Source of the DNA: Bacteroidota bacterium
Lineage (GTDB): Bacteria > Bacteroidota > Ignavibacteria > UBA10030 > UBA6906
Assembly: GCA_030835135.1 (NCBI GenBank)
Contig: JAUQWO010000075.1
Span: 62,001-126,000, forward strand
Reading direction: 5' to 3'
DNA: 64,000 nt
Positions 46,026 through 52,079 of this stretch are shown here, one piece after another. The notes under the pieces were generated by a model, which saw only the letters and a program-made list of their open reading frames with translations, made no database searches and had not been told where the DNA came from. A program made the position numbers and the translations under genes. Positions within the stretch are counted from its first letter, which is position 1; each line of letters begins with the position of its first letter.

Positions 46026-47756
46026 TTATCGTAGGTCTTTGATTTTCAACTGGGGTACCGGGTCGGCCGGCCTGCTGGCCCCCGGGGATGTCCACTCATT
46101 CTCTTCCACCGTATACACGCATTCAAGGTCCCGCCGCCCCACCGGAACGCGCGGCAGGAGTTCACCGAGACCGAAACCGATGGCATCGAAACTCACGCCG
46201 TTCTGCCGCACCCGGAACCGCAGGTGATTGCGCCCGACGATACGCGGCGTGCCGGCGACCTCGAGGTTCCGCGTGAGGAACGTCGGCCGTGTATTCTGGG
46301 GACCGAACGGTGCGAACTCGCGGAGGATCTTGATGAAGCGCGGCGTGATGTCCGTCAGCGCCAGCTCCATGTCGATACGGATCTCCGGTGTCTTCAGTTC
46401 CTCGGTCATCAGATCCTTCACCGCGGCCTTGAACGCCGTCTGGAACTCCTCCAGACGCTCCAGGTCCACCGTGAGCCCGGCAGCGTACTTGTGTCCGCCG
46501 AACTGCAGGATCGTATCCTCGCAACGCTTCAATGCCTCGTAGATGTCGAAGCCCGACACGCTCCGGGCCGAACCTTTGGCGACACCATCCACGGTGGCCA
46601 TCATGATCGATGGTTTGTAGTACCGTTCGACCATGCGGGAGGCGACGATGCCGACGACGCCGGGGTGCCAGTGTTCCTGATGGAGCACGATCGCCGGGTC
46701 GGCCTCGACATCGAAGCAGTTCTCCACGAGCTGCTGTGCATCCGCGAACGTGTCCTCGTCGATCTTCCTGCGGTTGCGGTTCTCTTCTTCCAGGACCTGG
46801 GCGAGCGCACGTGCTTCATCGGGGGTGGTGCTGGTCAGCAGACGCACGGCCCGTGTCGCGTCGCCGAGCCGTCCGGCAGCGTTGATCCTCGGCGCGAGGG
46901 CGAAGACGATCTGGCCGGTGGTGATGTGGCCGGGCTTCAGACCCGCGCTGTCGATGAGCGCCTTGATCCCCGGGCGCGGTGCGGAGTTGATCGCCTGCAA
47001 TCCGAGTTTGACGAGGATCCGGTTCTCTCCGACAAGAGGAACGATGTCCGCGGTGCTGGCGAGGGTGACGAAATCCAGGTAGTCCCGGATCATCTCCTCT
47101 TTGCCGATCCTGCGCGCGATCCCCTGGATGAACTTGAGTCCGACGCCACACCCGCTCAGGGATTTGAAAGGGTACGGGTCGCCGGGCTTGATGGGATCCA
47201 GTACCGCAATGGCATCCGGCAGGACCTGCCCGGCCTCATGATGATCGCAGATGATGACATCGAGTCCGCGTTCGTTGGCATAGGCCACCTGCTCGACCGC
47301 CGTGATGCCGCAGTCGATGGCGATGAACACGTTCACGCCATTGGCGAGGGCGAAGTCGATGCCCGAATGGGATATGCCGTACCCTTCCCTGATGCGGTCG
47401 GGTACGTAGAACTGGACCGTCGCACCCAGTGCCTGCAGGAACAGGTAGAGCATGGCAGCACCGTTGGTGCCGTCCACGTCGTAGTCGCCGAACACCGTGA
47501 AGGACTCGCCGGCCTCGATGCCGCGGAGGACGCGGTCAACTGCCGTCCCCATGCCTTCCAGAATGAACGGATCATGCAGCAGTGCGAGGTCGGGGCGGAA
47601 ATATGCCTTCGCCTTGTCGTAGTCGTCGATCCCGCGATAGATCAGGATCTTTGCAATGGACTCCGGGACATTAATGTCCCTTGCCAGGGCGGCCACAAGC
47701 CCTGCATCCGGAGGATCTGCGAGTATCCACCGGTGCTCCCTTACGGTTGTCCGCAC
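46026..47756 (-). CDS. recJ: Single-strand-specific exonuclease RecJ
   Basis: A 5'-3' single-strand DNA exonuclease of the DHH family, used in recombination and mismatch repair. I start it at GTG 47756 (VRTTVREHRWIL), with GGAG 5 nt upstream, giving 576 residues; GTG 47768 is an alternative. A longer open frame upstream runs into rnpB and is not coding. FGDYDVDGTNGAA and CDHHEAG hold the metal-binding acids; LAPRINAAGRLGDAT and GGHKYAAGLTV are the DHHA1-region motifs. First protein gene after rnpB in this minus-strand run. Confidence 0.96.
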   Translation of the reverse strand: MRTTVREHRWILADPPDAGLVAALARDINVPESIAKILIYRGIDDYDKAKAYFRPDLALLHDPFILEGMGTAVDRVLRGIEAGESFTVFGDYDVDGTNGAAMLYLFLQALGATVQFYVPDRIREGYGISHSGIDFALANGVNVFIAIDCGITAVEQVAYANERGLDVIICDHHEAGQVLPDAIAVLDPIKPGDPYPFKSLSGCGVGLKFIQGIARRIGKEEMIRDYLDFVTLASTADIVPLVGENRILVKLGLQAINSAPRPGIKALIDSAGLKPGHITTGQIVFALAPRINAAGRLGDATRAVRLLTSTTPDEARALAQVLEEENRNRRKIDEDTFADAQQLVENCFDVEADPAIVLHQEHWHPGVVGIVASRMVERYYKPSIMMATVDGVAKGSARSVSGFDIYEALKRCEDTILQFGGHKYAAGLTVDLERLEEFQTAFKAAVKDLMTEELKTPEIRIDMELALTDITPRFIKILREFAPFGPQNTRPTFLTRNLEVAGTPRIVGRNHLRFRVRQNGVSFDAIGFGLGELLPRVPVGRRDLECVYTVEENEWTSPGASRPADPVPQLKIKDLR

Positions 47757-47786
47757 AAAGAACTCCACTTCATTTGGCCATGCCTC

Positions 47787-47814
47787 CGCGCATGCCGCCG
47801 GAGCGGCATGCGCG
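47787..47814 (-). other. Perfect hairpin between rnpB and recJ
   Basis: CGCGCATGCCGC (47787-47798) and GCGGCATGCGCG (47803-47814) pair over 12 bp with a CGGA loop. No T tract follows on the minus strand. It lies 9 nt beyond the rnpB P1 stem and could stop or trim the rnpB transcript, or protect the recJ message. Confidence 0.5.
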
Positions 47815-47823
47815 CAAACATGG

Positions 47824-48250
47824 TTGCAGGTCTGTAAGCCGAATTCTGTCTGCTCCATCCTTGCGGACGGAGGAGGCAGCCATTTCTCTGGGCGGCGGAT
47901 TGCTCCGACGCTCGTGCGGCCTACCCGAGAGTTCGATCCCGCCATAGGCGGAACGCGAAGCGAGCAGCTTCTTCTCCCATATTTGGCCTTGCTCCGGGGG
48001 GGTTTGTCGTGCCCCCGGGATCACTCCCGGGGCGGTGAGCTCTTACCTCGCCTTTTCACCCTTACCTCGCGGTCCGGGCCCCGTACAGGCGGACCGACCC
48101 GTGGGGCGGTATGTTTTCTGTGACACTTTCCGTTCCCGCCCGTTTGCACGGACGGGCCCCCCGCTATGCGCGGGGCACCCTGCTCTGTGGAGTTCGGACT
48201 TTCCTCATCCCGCCCGGGGGCGGAACGCGGCTGCCCGACCTGCAATCGTG
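47824..48250 (-). ncRNA. rnpB: RNase P RNA (bacterial class A)
   Basis: The catalytic RNA of RNase P. On the minus strand the 5' part contains GAGGAAAGTCCGAACTCC and AGAGCAGGGTGCC (conserved region I); then come GCGAGGTAAGG and the AAGAGCTCACCG region, GGAGCAAGGCCAAATA, GGGTAGGC, and the 3' end with ACAGAATTCGGCTTACAGACC. The ends pair: TTGCAGGTC (48237-48245) with GACCTGCAA (47824-47832) forms P1. About 420 nt, normal for class A. A promoter (48258-48286) puts the 5' end near 48251. Confidence 0.96.
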
Positions 48251-48257
48251 AATTGTT

Positions 48258-48286
48258 AGTCTATTATATGAAGTAAATTAACACAA
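48258..48286 (-). promoter_or_regulatory. Promoter of rnpB
   Basis: Minus strand TTGTGT (48281-48286) and TAGACT (48258-48263) with 17 bp between. A TATAAT at 48263-48268 overlaps but has no -35 partner. The -35 box overlaps the stop codon of the RNase H-like gene. The predicted start fits the P1 stem. Confidence 0.6.
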
Positions 48287-48730
48287 TCCGCCCGAGAGAA
48301 GCAAAGCCCGCTCCTCAGCCGGGAGGGGTTCTCTCGATTCGATCCCCCGGTTCGCGAGCGCATCCGCTTCCTTGTTCTGCTCGCGGGGGACGTATCGTAC
48401 TATCAACTCGTAGAGGGCTGCTTTGCGCAGCCGCTGCACCTCAGCGCACATGCGCTGGAGCCTGGCATCCTTCACCTTGTAGATGCCGTTCACCTGCCGT
48501 ACCATCAACTCGCTGTCGGCCCGCACCTCCAACCGCGTACAGGGCAGCGTGGCCATCCGCCGGAGCAGGATGATCAGTGCTGTGTACTCGGCCACGTTGT
48601 TCGTGGTCGTCCCGAGATAGGCGGCAATGGTCAGGACCACATGCCCGTCGGCATCGCGCACGATCACGCCGATGCCACTCTCCCCGGGATTGCCTCGCGA
48701 TGCGCCGTCCGTTGCGGCGAACAGCGTCAT
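48278..48730 (-). CDS. RNase HI-like protein (RVT_3 family)
   Basis: A 150-residue RNase H-fold protein. The catalytic acids appear in ATDGASRGNPG (Asp), NVAEYTALIILL (Glu), VRADSELMVRQVNG (Asp) and NKEADALAN (Asp). This is the short RVT_3/plant-type RNase HI group, which may cut RNA in RNA-DNA hybrids; the N-terminal hybrid-binding domain of longer enzymes is missing. It starts at ATG 48730, overlapping the stop of the zinc-ribbon gene (ATGA); that pair of genes is often found together. Confidence 0.88.
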   Translation of the reverse strand: MTLFAATDGASRGNPGESGIGVIVRDADGHVVLTIAAYLGTTTNNVAEYTALIILLRRMATLPCTRLEVRADSELMVRQVNGIYKVKDARLQRMCAEVQRLRKAALYELIVRYVPREQNKEADALANRGIESREPLPAEERALLLSGGLC

Positions 48731-49467
48731 TTCGGTTTCTTCGCCAGCTTCACGGTCTCGACGATCCCGTCCGAGACGATGATGCGTCCGCACCGCTCAC
48801 ACGTGTACATCTTCTCGTTCGTCCGCAGTTCGAGGAGCTTCTGTGGGGGGAGACGGTTGTAACAGCCGCCACAGGCGCCCTTCTGTACGGGGACGACCGC
48901 CATGCCTTTCTTGGCCTTGCGGATGCGCTCGTACGCGGCGAGGTCCTGCTTCGTGATCCGCGCGACGGCCTTCTCCCGTTCATGCCTGTACTGCAATTCC
49001 TCGTCCTCGGTCAGCTTGGAAACCTCTGCCAGCGCCGCCTGCTTCTCGGCAAGCTGCTTCTCGATCACCGCGGCCTTCTCCTTCAGTTCCTCGCTCTCGG
49101 TGCGCGCGGTGGTCGCCTGGATCTCCATCTGGCCCATTTCCTTCTCGAGCCGTGCCACGGCCTCGGTCGCGGCATCCATCTCGCGCGTCAGCGCGTCGTA
49201 CTCACGGTTGGAGCGCACCGAAAGCTGCTGCCCCTTATACTTGTTAAGTTTCTCTCTCAGCGTGACGATCTCGTTGTCAGCGTTGTCGCGACCGCTGAAT
49301 GCCTGACGCATCGCCTGCTCGGCTGCGGTCTGACGGGCGCGCATGGCGGCGAGTTCGTTCTCCAGAGCTTCGACCTCGAACGGGAGGTCGCCTTTCTGCT
49401 CCTGCAGCGAATCAAGATCGGTGTCGATAAGCTGCAGAGCGAACAGATATTCGAGTTTGTTTTTCAC
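48727..49467 (-). CDS. Coiled-coil protein with C-terminal C4 zinc ribbon
   Basis: A 246-residue protein. A long helical coiled coil (about residues 10-180, many Glu/Lys heptads) is followed by a zinc ribbon with CGGC (in GACGGCYNRL) and CERC (in MYTCERCGRIIV). This is the widespread bacterial zinc-ribbon family that includes the chlamydial CT398 protein; CT398 interacts with the sigma-54 factor in Chlamydia, but the general function is not settled. Its stop overlaps the RNase H-like start. It follows the nif3-like gene by 23 nt. Confidence 0.85.
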   Translation of the reverse strand: MKNKLEYLFALQLIDTDLDSLQEQKGDLPFEVEALENELAAMRARQTAAEQAMRQAFSGRDNADNEIVTLREKLNKYKGQQLSVRSNREYDALTREMDAATEAVARLEKEMGQMEIQATTARTESEELKEKAAVIEKQLAEKQAALAEVSKLTEDEELQYRHEREKAVARITKQDLAAYERIRKAKKGMAVVPVQKGACGGCYNRLPPQKLLELRTNEKMYTCERCGRIIVSDGIVETVKLAKKPK

Positions 49468-49490: not shown

Positions 49491-50600
49491 CTACACGTAG
49501 ACAATGGGTGTTGTCCGGACACGCGAGGCAACGATGGTCACGTCCGGATGATCTCCGCCCAGCGATGAGCGGAGGAAACGTTCGAGAGCCCCGACCACGG
49601 GGTATTCGGTCTCATAGTGTCCGGCATCCACCAGCAGCAGAGCGCCGGCGTTGTCGACGAAAGCATGGTAGTTCAGGTCGGCCGTGATGTATGCGTCCAC
49701 TCCCGCTGCAACGGCTGCGGGGATCAGGTCACCGCCGGCACCGCCACAGACCGCAGCGGTGCGGATCCGGCGGCGGGTATCGCCTGCCATCCGCATGCCC
49801 GGGGCCCGGAGGTGCTTCTTCACATGCCGGAGGAATGCCGCCGCCGGCATCGGCCTGTGCAGCCTGCCGAATGCTCCCATGCCCGTTGTGGCGTTGGCGG
49901 ACTCGAGCGGGTACACATCGAAGGCTGCCTCTTCATAGGGATGGCTTCGCCGTAGCGCCGACACCACGGCCGGGAGCCGGTCGTCCTCCACCGGCATCTC
50001 CAGGCGTATCTCGGTCACATGTTCCAGAACGCCCTTGCGTCCGACCACCGGCGAGGACCGGTCATTCCCTTTGAATGACCCCGTGCCGCGGCCGCGGTAT
50101 GCGCAGTGCTCGTAGTTGCCGATGATGCCCGCGCCTGCCGACGCCATCGCGGCAGCCACGTCGTCCACCGATTCTTCCGGGACGAAGGTGACGATCTTCC
50201 GGCCGGTGTTGCGCCGTCCGGCAAGGGGACGGATATCCGTGAGGCCGAGGGTCTCGGCAAGGACGTGGCTTGTTCCGCCCCGGGCAGCATCGAGGTTCGT
50301 ATGGGATGCGTAGAGTGCGCAGTCATGCCGGATCAGTGTCGCGATCACCCGGCCCTGCGGGGTGCTCGTGTCCAGGCTGCGAAGGGGGCGATACAGTGGG
50401 GGATGGTGAGCGACGATAAGATCAATGTGGCGGCGGGCGGCTTCTGCGGCAACGGCATCGGTGACATCCTGGGTGACGAGGATCCGTCGGACCGGGGCCC
50501 CGGGGTCGCCGACCTGGAGCCCGACGTTGTCGCGCTCCCACGCCAGCGACCGCGGCGCCCAGGTCTCGAGGAGCCGGGCAATGTCACTTACCCGCACCAT
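49491..50600 (-). CDS. NIF3-like dinuclear metal protein (YbgI/YqfO family)
   Basis: A 369-residue protein of the NIF3/YbgI family, which forms toroidal hexamers with a di-metal site. Metal ligands are in VAHHPPLYRPLR, HTNLDAA and DAGHYETEYPVV. The extra central domain of about 100 residues, as in YqfO, is present (around residues 130-235). Biochemical function is not established; GTP cyclohydrolase-like activity has been proposed for some members. ATG 50600 has GGGGGAG upstream. A leader with an intrinsic terminator precedes it at once (50617-50645). Confidence 0.87.
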   Translation of the reverse strand: MVRVSDIARLLETWAPRSLAWERDNVGLQVGDPGAPVRRILVTQDVTDAVAAEAARRHIDLIVAHHPPLYRPLRSLDTSTPQGRVIATLIRHDCALYASHTNLDAARGGTSHVLAETLGLTDIRPLAGRRNTGRKIVTFVPEESVDDVAAAMASAGAGIIGNYEHCAYRGRGTGSFKGNDRSSPVVGRKGVLEHVTEIRLEMPVEDDRLPAVVSALRRSHPYEEAAFDVYPLESANATTGMGAFGRLHRPMPAAAFLRHVKKHLRAPGMRMAGDTRRRIRTAAVCGGAGGDLIPAAVAAGVDAYITADLNYHAFVDNAGALLLVDAGHYETEYPVVGALERFLRSSLGGDHPDVTIVASRVRTTPIVYV

Positions 50601-50616
50601 GCTGCTCCCCCCATTG

Positions 50617-50645
50617 AAAAAAAAGAATCCCGCCGTTGGGCGGGA
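50617..50645 (-). terminator. Intrinsic terminator in front of the nif3-like gene
   Basis: On the minus strand TCCCGCC (50639-50645) pairs with GGCGGGA (50628-50634), loop CAAC, then TTC and eight T residues (50617-50624). This is the only terminator in the window with a long T tract. It ends 16 nt before the nif3-like start codon. Confidence 0.85.
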
Positions 50646-50772
50646 AAGTCGGATTTGTTAGGACGGGCTGCGCTTCGCAGAAATTTCAGGTCGCTATGAA
50701 GTGTACGCTTCACGTGTGATCGGAAGAAGGCGCTTTCTCTGGGTCGTCTCAGCGTCCAAACGCTGTATCAGG
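50617..50772 (-). ncRNA. Candidate small RNA or riboregulatory leader, about 156 nt
   Basis: A 213-nt gap between two minus-strand genes contains a promoter (50779-50807), then about 130 nt with no ATG on the minus strand, then a strong terminator. Three further stems are visible: CAGCGT/ACGCTG (loop TTGG) at the 5' end, TGAAG/CTTCA, and CTGCG/CGCAG (loop AAG). It does not resemble tRNA, rnpB, SRP RNA (no GGAAG-type loop), tmRNA or a known riboswitch that I can recognise, and the ends do not pair as in 6S RNA. It could be a free RNA or an attenuator of the nif3-like operon. Confidence 0.6.
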
Positions 50773-50778
50773 ATTTAT

Positions 50779-50807
50779 AATATACAAAGAGATCCGGCCA
50801 GATGCAA
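50779..50807 (-). promoter_or_regulatory. Promoter of the candidate small RNA
   Basis: Minus strand TTGCAT (50802-50807) and TATATT (50779-50784), spacer 17 bp. It starts 7 nt after the stop codon of the REC-HisKA gene and predicts a 5' end near 50772. Confidence 0.7.
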
Positions 50808-50813
50808 GCCGGG

Positions 50814-51494
50814 CTAGAGCTTCGTAAAATCGATCCGTTCGAAGTTCAGGTCCCGGAGGCGTGAGATCTCCCGTTCGACCTCACTGATCTGGTTGTCGAT
50901 CGCCGTGACCACGCGTTTGTCCTCGTCCGAGAGCTCCTGCCGGAGGAGGATGTCGGTGCTGATCTTGATCGCCGCCAGAGGGTTGTTGAATTCGTGGCAC
51001 ACGGTGACCACCAGCTCGTGGATGGCGTCGGTCCGTTTTCGGGCGATCAGGTCCGTTTTTGCCTGTGCGGCGATCCTCTGCTTCAGCCGCACCCGTTCAA
51101 GGATATTGATGATGGACCGCGGGAGGACCGAATCCACCGCTTCGTCCTTGATCAGGTAGTCTTCCACCCCGAATTTCATCACTTCGATGGCAAGCCGGAA
51201 ATCCCGGTTTGAAGTGAGGAAAATGATCGGCGTGTCGATGTTCCGGGCCCGGATCTCTCTCGCAAGCTCAAGACCGTTCATTTCGGGGAGATAGTAGTCC
51301 ACCACGATCATATCGAGCGGGGGACGGGTCTCCAGGAATGCCAATCCGGTGCTGGGACTTTGTTTCCAGATAGTGAGGAAGCGGCGGCCCTGATACTTGG
51401 ACAGGAGGTGACGCGCAACCGCCATGTATCCAGCATCATCGTCGATGAAGAGGAGCTGGATGGGGGGGGTCAGATGAACGGTCTCTGCTGGCAT
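50814..51494 (-). CDS. REC-HisKA protein lacking a kinase ATPase domain
   Basis: A 226-residue signalling protein. An N-terminal receiver domain has the acidic pair DDD at 18-20, phospho-acceptor Asp66 (VVDYYLP), Thr94 and Lys116. A linker helix leads to a HisKA dimerisation domain with the H-box HEFNNPL (His167). The protein ends at about residue 226, without any HATPase_c domain, so it cannot phosphorylate itself. It may act as a phosphotransfer, phosphatase or dimer partner of another kinase. ATG 51494 follows a promoter so closely that the message is nearly leaderless. Divergent from the regulator at 51667. Confidence 0.8.
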   Translation of the reverse strand: MPAETVHLTPPIQLLFIDDDAGYMAVARHLLSKYQGRRFLTIWKQSPSTGLAFLETRPPLDMIVVDYYLPEMNGLELAREIRARNIDTPIIFLTSNRDFRLAIEVMKFGVEDYLIKDEAVDSVLPRSIINILERVRLKQRIAAQAKTDLIARKRTDAIHELVVTVCHEFNNPLAAIKISTDILLRQELSDEDKRVVTAIDNQISEVEREISRLRDLNFERIDFTKL

Positions 51495-51505
51495 GGTTGT
51501 GACCA

Positions 51506-51534
51506 AGTATACCATACCGGAAGGAGAATTGCAA
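51506..51534 (-). promoter_or_regulatory. Promoter of the REC-HisKA gene
   Basis: Minus strand TTGCAA (51529-51534) and TATACT (51506-51511), spacer 17 bp. The predicted start is only a few bases before ATG 51494. Back to back with the promoter at 51549. Confidence 0.65.
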
Positions 51535-51548
51535 CGCCCCTTTTTTGG

Positions 51549-51577
51549 TTGATTTTCTGGTGTTCTTTGTCTATTAT
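51549..51577 (+). promoter_or_regulatory. Promoter of the response-regulator genes
   Basis: TTGATT (51549-51554) and TATTAT (51572-51577), spacer 17 bp. Its -35 box is 14 bp from the -35 box of the divergent promoter, so one bound factor could affect both. Leader to ATG 51667 is about 80 nt. Confidence 0.7.
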
Positions 51578-51666
51578 CCCCATCAAAGCGGTCAAGTTTA
51601 CCCGTAGGTATGCTCCTGGTGCAGCGGGTATGGCCGACCTCATCACACCAGCGGGAGATCCGCCAG

Positions 51667-52035
51667 ATGGCAAAAAAGAGCTCGGTTCTTGTTGTGGATG
51701 ATGAAGAAGCACTCCGGAGCGTTCTGAGCAGCGAACTCACGAATGAAGGGTATGACGTCCGCACTGCTTCGGATGGAGATGAGGCCATCGTGGAGATCGA
51801 CAAGTCCAATTTCGATCTCGTGCTGTTGGATATCAAGATGCCGCGGGTGAACGGATTCGATGTGCTCAAACATATCAAGGAACGCCGGACCCCGACGAAG
51901 GTCGTGATGCTGACCGGGTTCGCGGACCTCAAGAACGCGATCGAATCGAAGAAACTGGGGGCGGACGATTTCGTCAGCAAGCCGTACGATCTTGTCGATC
52001 TTCTGACGACGATCGAACGGGTGCTGAATGAATAA
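51667..52035 (+). CDS. Single-domain response regulator (CheY-like)
   Basis: A 122-residue receiver domain with no output domain. Acidic pair in VVVDDEEALR, phospho-acceptor Asp55 (LLDIKMPR), and the conserved lysine in VSKPYD. It is close in sequence to the receiver of the next gene (both begin MAKK, both keep IKMPRV/VRMPRV and AKPYD/SKPYD), suggesting a duplication. Start at ATG 51667 with GGGAG upstream. It may be a phosphate carrier between the divergent REC-HisKA protein and the NtrC-type regulator, which is inference. Confidence 0.9.
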   Translation: MAKKSSVLVVDDEEALRSVLSSELTNEGYDVRTASDGDEAIVEIDKSNFDLVLLDIKMPRVNGFDVLKHIKERRTPTKVVMLTGFADLKNAIESKKLGADDFVSKPYDLVDLLTTIERVLNE

Positions 52036-52079
52036 GAGCCGTCACCTCCCACAGCGTCGCGTGTGAGCGTGGCGGGACC

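Follow-up and report, generated by a model that had tools for sequence, protein, structure and literature searches.

In the pyrBI operon of Escherichia coli, the pyrL leader ORF runs up to or across an intrinsic terminator which is relieved by the translating ribosome, and no antiterminator is involved; attenuators of this type depend on UTP-sensitive pausing of the polymerase. Coupling at pyrBI by pausing is also mentioned in a study (PMC4824070) reporting that in E. coli a stop codon located 5 bp before a terminator lowered termination from about 90% to less than 10%, an effect that was lost without translation, and that a terminator about 30 bp after the start codon was relieved by translation by only about 10%, as the ribosome had not caught up. 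A short translated ORF together with an intrinsic terminator in the 5' leader is likewise found in attenuators of the trp/his type and in Bacillus subtilis bmrCD (PMC4191407), and in the nonstop genes arfA and brfA the ORF crosses an intrinsic terminator.

The region preceding nif3 in the window (the whole analysed stretch of 64,000 nucleotides) resembles pyrBI in its geometry, in that an ORF extends to or across a terminator in front of the first gene and no antiterminator is found, here judged from sequence alone. It differs from pyrBI in the genes concerned, in the phylum, and in that the leader ORF is often shorter. We propose, with a probability of roughly 0.6, that this region forms the 5' leader of the nif3 mRNA and acts as an attenuator of transcription, coupled to translation of the short leader ORF. 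The relevant features are the following:

50802..50807, minus strand: -35 box TTGCAT of the leader promoter (pattern TTG-N20-TATAtT, in 50 of 55 leaders)
50779..50784, minus strand: -10 box TATATT of the leader promoter
50588..50713, minus strand: leader ORF VKRTLHSDLKFLRSAARPNKSDFPAQRRDSFFSMGGAAWCG, 41 codons, GTG start, with codon-level conservation in the family
50628..50645, minus strand: terminator hairpin TCCCGCC-CAAC-GGCGGGA
50617..50624, minus strand: U-tract of eight T, ending 16 nt before the nif3 ATG
49491..50600, minus strand: nif3 (DUF34/NIF3; Pfam PF01784, E 1.1e-73), the first gene behind the putative attenuator
48727..49467, minus strand: C4-type zinc-ribbon coiled-coil protein (Pfam PF02591), probably on the same transcript
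48278..48793, minus strand: RNase H-like protein (Pfam PF13456/PF00075), probably on the same transcript

Much of this layout had been noted in an initial sequence-only reading and was recovered here, including the two promoter boxes with their spacer of 17 nt, which lie on the minus strand, the terminator with its eight T residues, and the distance of 16 nt to the nif3 start codon. The stretch of about 130 nt without an ATG which that reading had placed after the promoter is 133 nt long, counted from the -10 box to the hairpin, and transcription is expected to start near 50772. The trinucleotide TTC separates the hairpin from the U-tract, and GGGGGGAG precedes the nif3 ATG (50600-50598). The leader ORF crosses the terminator and overlaps the start of nif3 by 13 nt. 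Where exactly it starts is uncertain, as the frame remains open upstream of the GTG; an in-frame SH just before this codon is shared with two relatives that possess an upstream ATG.

On the other side of the leader, a frame at 50814-52052 (minus strand) probably contains a real gene of only about 50814-51490, whose product combines a response-regulator receiver domain with a HisKA domain and has no HATPase domain; this protein is not a simple truncation, since its C-terminus is also conserved among relatives. A weak terminator-like hairpin, CCGGCTTGCATCTGGCCGG (50794-50812, minus strand), is located 3' of this gene and overlaps the -35 box of the leader.

We compared the region before nif3 in 44 loci of the closest Nif3 relatives, which in public genomes are nearly all labelled as Ignavibacteria or as families of this class, together with 17 genomes of the window's own family and 40 selected from the order, class and phylum. 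In nearly every sampled locus from the Ignavibacteria, a promoter is followed after a short gap by an intrinsic terminator, and the U-tract of the latter reaches the nif3 start or stops just short of it. The gene upstream varies (REC-HisKA or ispG-like, read by eye), and the leader unit stays with nif3. Exceptions among the Ignavibacteria include one locus without the unit (L087) and another with a hairpin that lacks a proper T-run (L073). Outside this class, a similar terminator is found at L088 and L089, L092 and L093 carry a tRNA-Leu gene followed by a terminator, and 15 sampled loci have no such terminator. L092 and L093 belong to another family of the phylum; at L046 and L048 the leader likewise contains a tRNA gene (tRNA-Ala) ahead of the terminator and of nif3, all four tRNA genes being identified by eye. 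Judging from this arrangement, nif3 at these four loci may be expressed by read-through from the tRNA gene.

For statistics, the leaders were reduced to 55 non-redundant ones (less than 75% alike over 80 nt). The promoter pattern TTG-N19..21-TAT[AT][ACT]T is present in 50 of these, compared with 2.3 in shuffled sequences, and in 46 leaders the gap in this pattern is exactly 20; taken alone in a single genome, the promoter of the window could have arisen by chance. A scan of 2 kb found four terminator matches, the window terminator among them (shuffles: 0.9). In 52 of the 55 leaders the U-tract ends between -3 and 17 nt before the nif3 start, which leaves no room for another promoter, and given how close the U-tract lies to the start codon, the polymerase has to pass the terminator to reach nif3. 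Such an arrangement is nearly specific for nif3: of the 605 ORFs with 150 codons or more in the window and 43 loci, 28 have a terminator no further than 25 nt from a start codon, 27 of them being nif3, in a scan that missed some leaders with a T-run 3 nt after the stem, including that of the window. Almost no other gene in the sampled loci thus has a terminator in this position. Stem positions include pairs that have changed on both sides; as the stems were picked for pairing, these changes show that a hairpin is kept in place and are not independent proof of covariation. In the window itself three lower pairs retained in the nearest relatives are lost (GAA/TTC to CTT/TTC), and its hairpin may therefore be weaker. 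A repeat-type terminator was considered and rejected; the hairpin core occurs only once more in the genome, within an apparent coding region and with no T-run behind it.

The leader also contains a coding frame. Defining a leader ORF by an ATG 45-105 nt before the hairpin and a frame open to within 20 nt of it, a positional criterion of our own choice on which the statistics depend, we found one in 43 of 55 leaders (14.6 in shuffles, with a maximum of 25), with the start lying a median of 72 nt upstream of the stem. In the window's own family, the synonymous fraction in frame 0 is 0.39 versus 0.16 expected (p = 0.001), and in a second group it is 0.41 versus 0.18 in the leader ORF frame (p < 0.001); codon-level conservation was not significant in four other leader groups. 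The leader peptide without an ATG start, which the sequence-only reading had raised as a possibility, is thus supported by a coding frame, here beginning with GTG, that is conserved at codon level in the family.

The positions of the stop codons were also compared. Since the ORFs were required to be open to -20, the counts carry a selection, but 31 of 54 stop within 20 nt before the stem, clustering 2-20 nt before it, five stop inside the stem, and 18, including that of the window, cross the terminator. For the 18 that cross, the stop always falls between -10 and +23 nt from the aligned nif3 start, and those of the window genome and two congeners all stop at +13. Each leader ORF therefore terminates at the hairpin or else leads on to nif3, and a ribosome translating it would be placed so as to mask the hairpin.

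A crossing ORF whose transcript is terminated would lack a stop codon, as in the genes of the rescue factors ArfA and BrfA, and the leader could accordingly encode a similar factor made from a nonstop mRNA. The crossing ORFs are consistent with this, but in the other 36 of 54 leaders the stop codon lies before or inside the hairpin, so that a nonstop mRNA is not a conserved property; some ORFs comprise only 10-17 amino acids, no clear motif is shared, and in our judgement the peptides do not resemble a rescue factor. We regard this explanation as scarcely credible.

Less easily dismissed, if still unlikely, is that the ORF is a gene for a small protein which acts in trans, with a constitutively leaky terminator of its own and unregulated read-through into nif3. 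Indeed, the peptides are short and usually basic, with 26% K+R versus 20% in shuffled ORFs, and the motifs KRTPYTD in the own family and KRRPYTD in the second group are conserved at the amino acid level. Across the class, however, the peptide is unrecognisable (motif information 7.7 versus 6.6-7.1 in shuffles), it can be as short as 10 amino acids while the distance to nif3 stays fixed, and the crossing ORFs end at the nif3 start. A DNA search for the leader body in 60 relatives gave matches in only three besides the own genome, indicating that the body evolves fast.

This lack of conservation at the DNA level outside close relatives also bears on the question of a stand-alone small RNA or a riboswitch, as do substitutions that follow codons. 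The promoter and terminator do predict a terminated RNA of about 155 nt, and the sequence-only reading had considered a stand-alone structured RNA, a riboswitch or a tRNA sensor and had described several short stems. However, the Rfam search which it had proposed returned nothing at gathering or permissive thresholds (the best hit was isrJ, E 0.88, with 16.5 bits versus a cut-off of 37), the leader RNA folds no better than shuffled sequences (z = -1.05), the family alignment shows the terminator as its only conserved fold, and the terminator arm was not found to pair in any alternative way. There is thus neither the conserved fold nor the Rfam match expected of a riboswitch or a known structured RNA, and we consider this explanation largely refuted. 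The conserved structure in relatives on which the sequence-only reading had made its case depend is absent as far as RNA structure is concerned and present as far as the unit is concerned, with promoter, ORF and terminator kept.

A classical leader-peptide attenuator, in which the choice between terminator and antiterminator is made by a ribosome stalled at particular codons or by a drug or metabolite, would equally explain why a short ORF and a terminator precede the genes to be regulated. In contrast to the trp/his type and bmrCD, the nif3 leader contains no run of regulatory codons, e.g. for a regulated amino acid, and no residue is strongly enriched (K, 1.46-fold at most). In addition, upstream RNA offers the 5' arm of the hairpin less pairing than shuffled sequences do (0.32 versus 0.43; higher in only 13 of 55 leaders), which argues against a mutually exclusive antiterminator. 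Regulation of this kind is therefore most improbable for nif3.

With no upstream pairing of the 5' arm above chance, the ribosome is the remaining obvious antiterminator, and we return to the attenuator coupled to leader translation. As in the pyrBI type, a promoter is followed by a leader ORF and an intrinsic terminator just before the first gene, and there is no competing antiterminator. RNA polymerase would start at the conserved promoter and transcribe the short ORF up to, into or across the terminator. A ribosome following closely behind would cover the 5' arm of the hairpin and permit read-through into the nif3, zinc-ribbon and RNase H genes, whereas with late or absent translation the hairpin would form and transcription would end after about 155 nt. 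The outcome would thus be decided by a race between ribosome and polymerase, in which a translated leader means that nif3 is on and an untranslated one yields only the short terminated RNA. Where the ORF crosses the terminator and ends at the nif3 start, as in the window, translation of the two would be coupled as well. Promoter, leader ORF, terminator and their spacing are demonstrably conserved in the aligned leaders; we infer that termination takes place there, that ribosomes relieve it and that it is under regulation. Among the options named by the sequence-only reading, a terminator-based attenuator before the nif3, zinc-ribbon and RNase H genes is the one favoured by a unit that is kept across the Ignavibacteria, is nearly specific for nif3 and holds a coding frame.

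Two points qualify this mechanism. The distance of about 70 nt between the start of the leader ORF and the terminator calls for a polymerase pause or fast initiation. Furthermore, peptide conservation within families exceeds what ribosome masking alone would require. It is conceivable, if rather doubtful, that the basic peptide (KRTPYTD or KRRPYTD) serves as a nascent-chain sensor or acts on the Nif3/zinc-ribbon system, and that terminated transcripts of crossing ORFs are nonstop mRNAs which tie the control of nif3 to ribosome rescue.

NIF3/DUF34 proteins are near-universal and of uncertain function; a role as metal chaperone or insertase has been proposed, and clustering of DUF34 with COG1579 zinc-ribbon genes has been discussed (PMC8469502). 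The nif3 leader itself contains no direct pointer to metals. Behind the RNase H-like gene, the same strand carries the RNase P RNA (class A; 47819-48246, minus strand) and then recJ, whose true start probably lies downstream of the one implied by its open frame (46026-47945), as this frame overlaps the RNase P RNA. In the open-access literature, we found no paper that joins Nif3, the zinc ribbon and RNase H under these names or that describes the present leader. While translation-coupled attenuators are a known kind, the candidate described here is, as far as our searches and tools show, new for nif3 and for the Ignavibacteria.

The nif3 leader would represent a translation-coupled terminator without antiterminator in which the spacing has been preserved across a large evolutionary distance and the peptide has not. 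An attenuator that is both conserved and nearly specific for nif3 suggests that nif3 genes throughout a bacterial class are adjusted to translation, and it gives a testable hint as to when the Nif3 protein is required.
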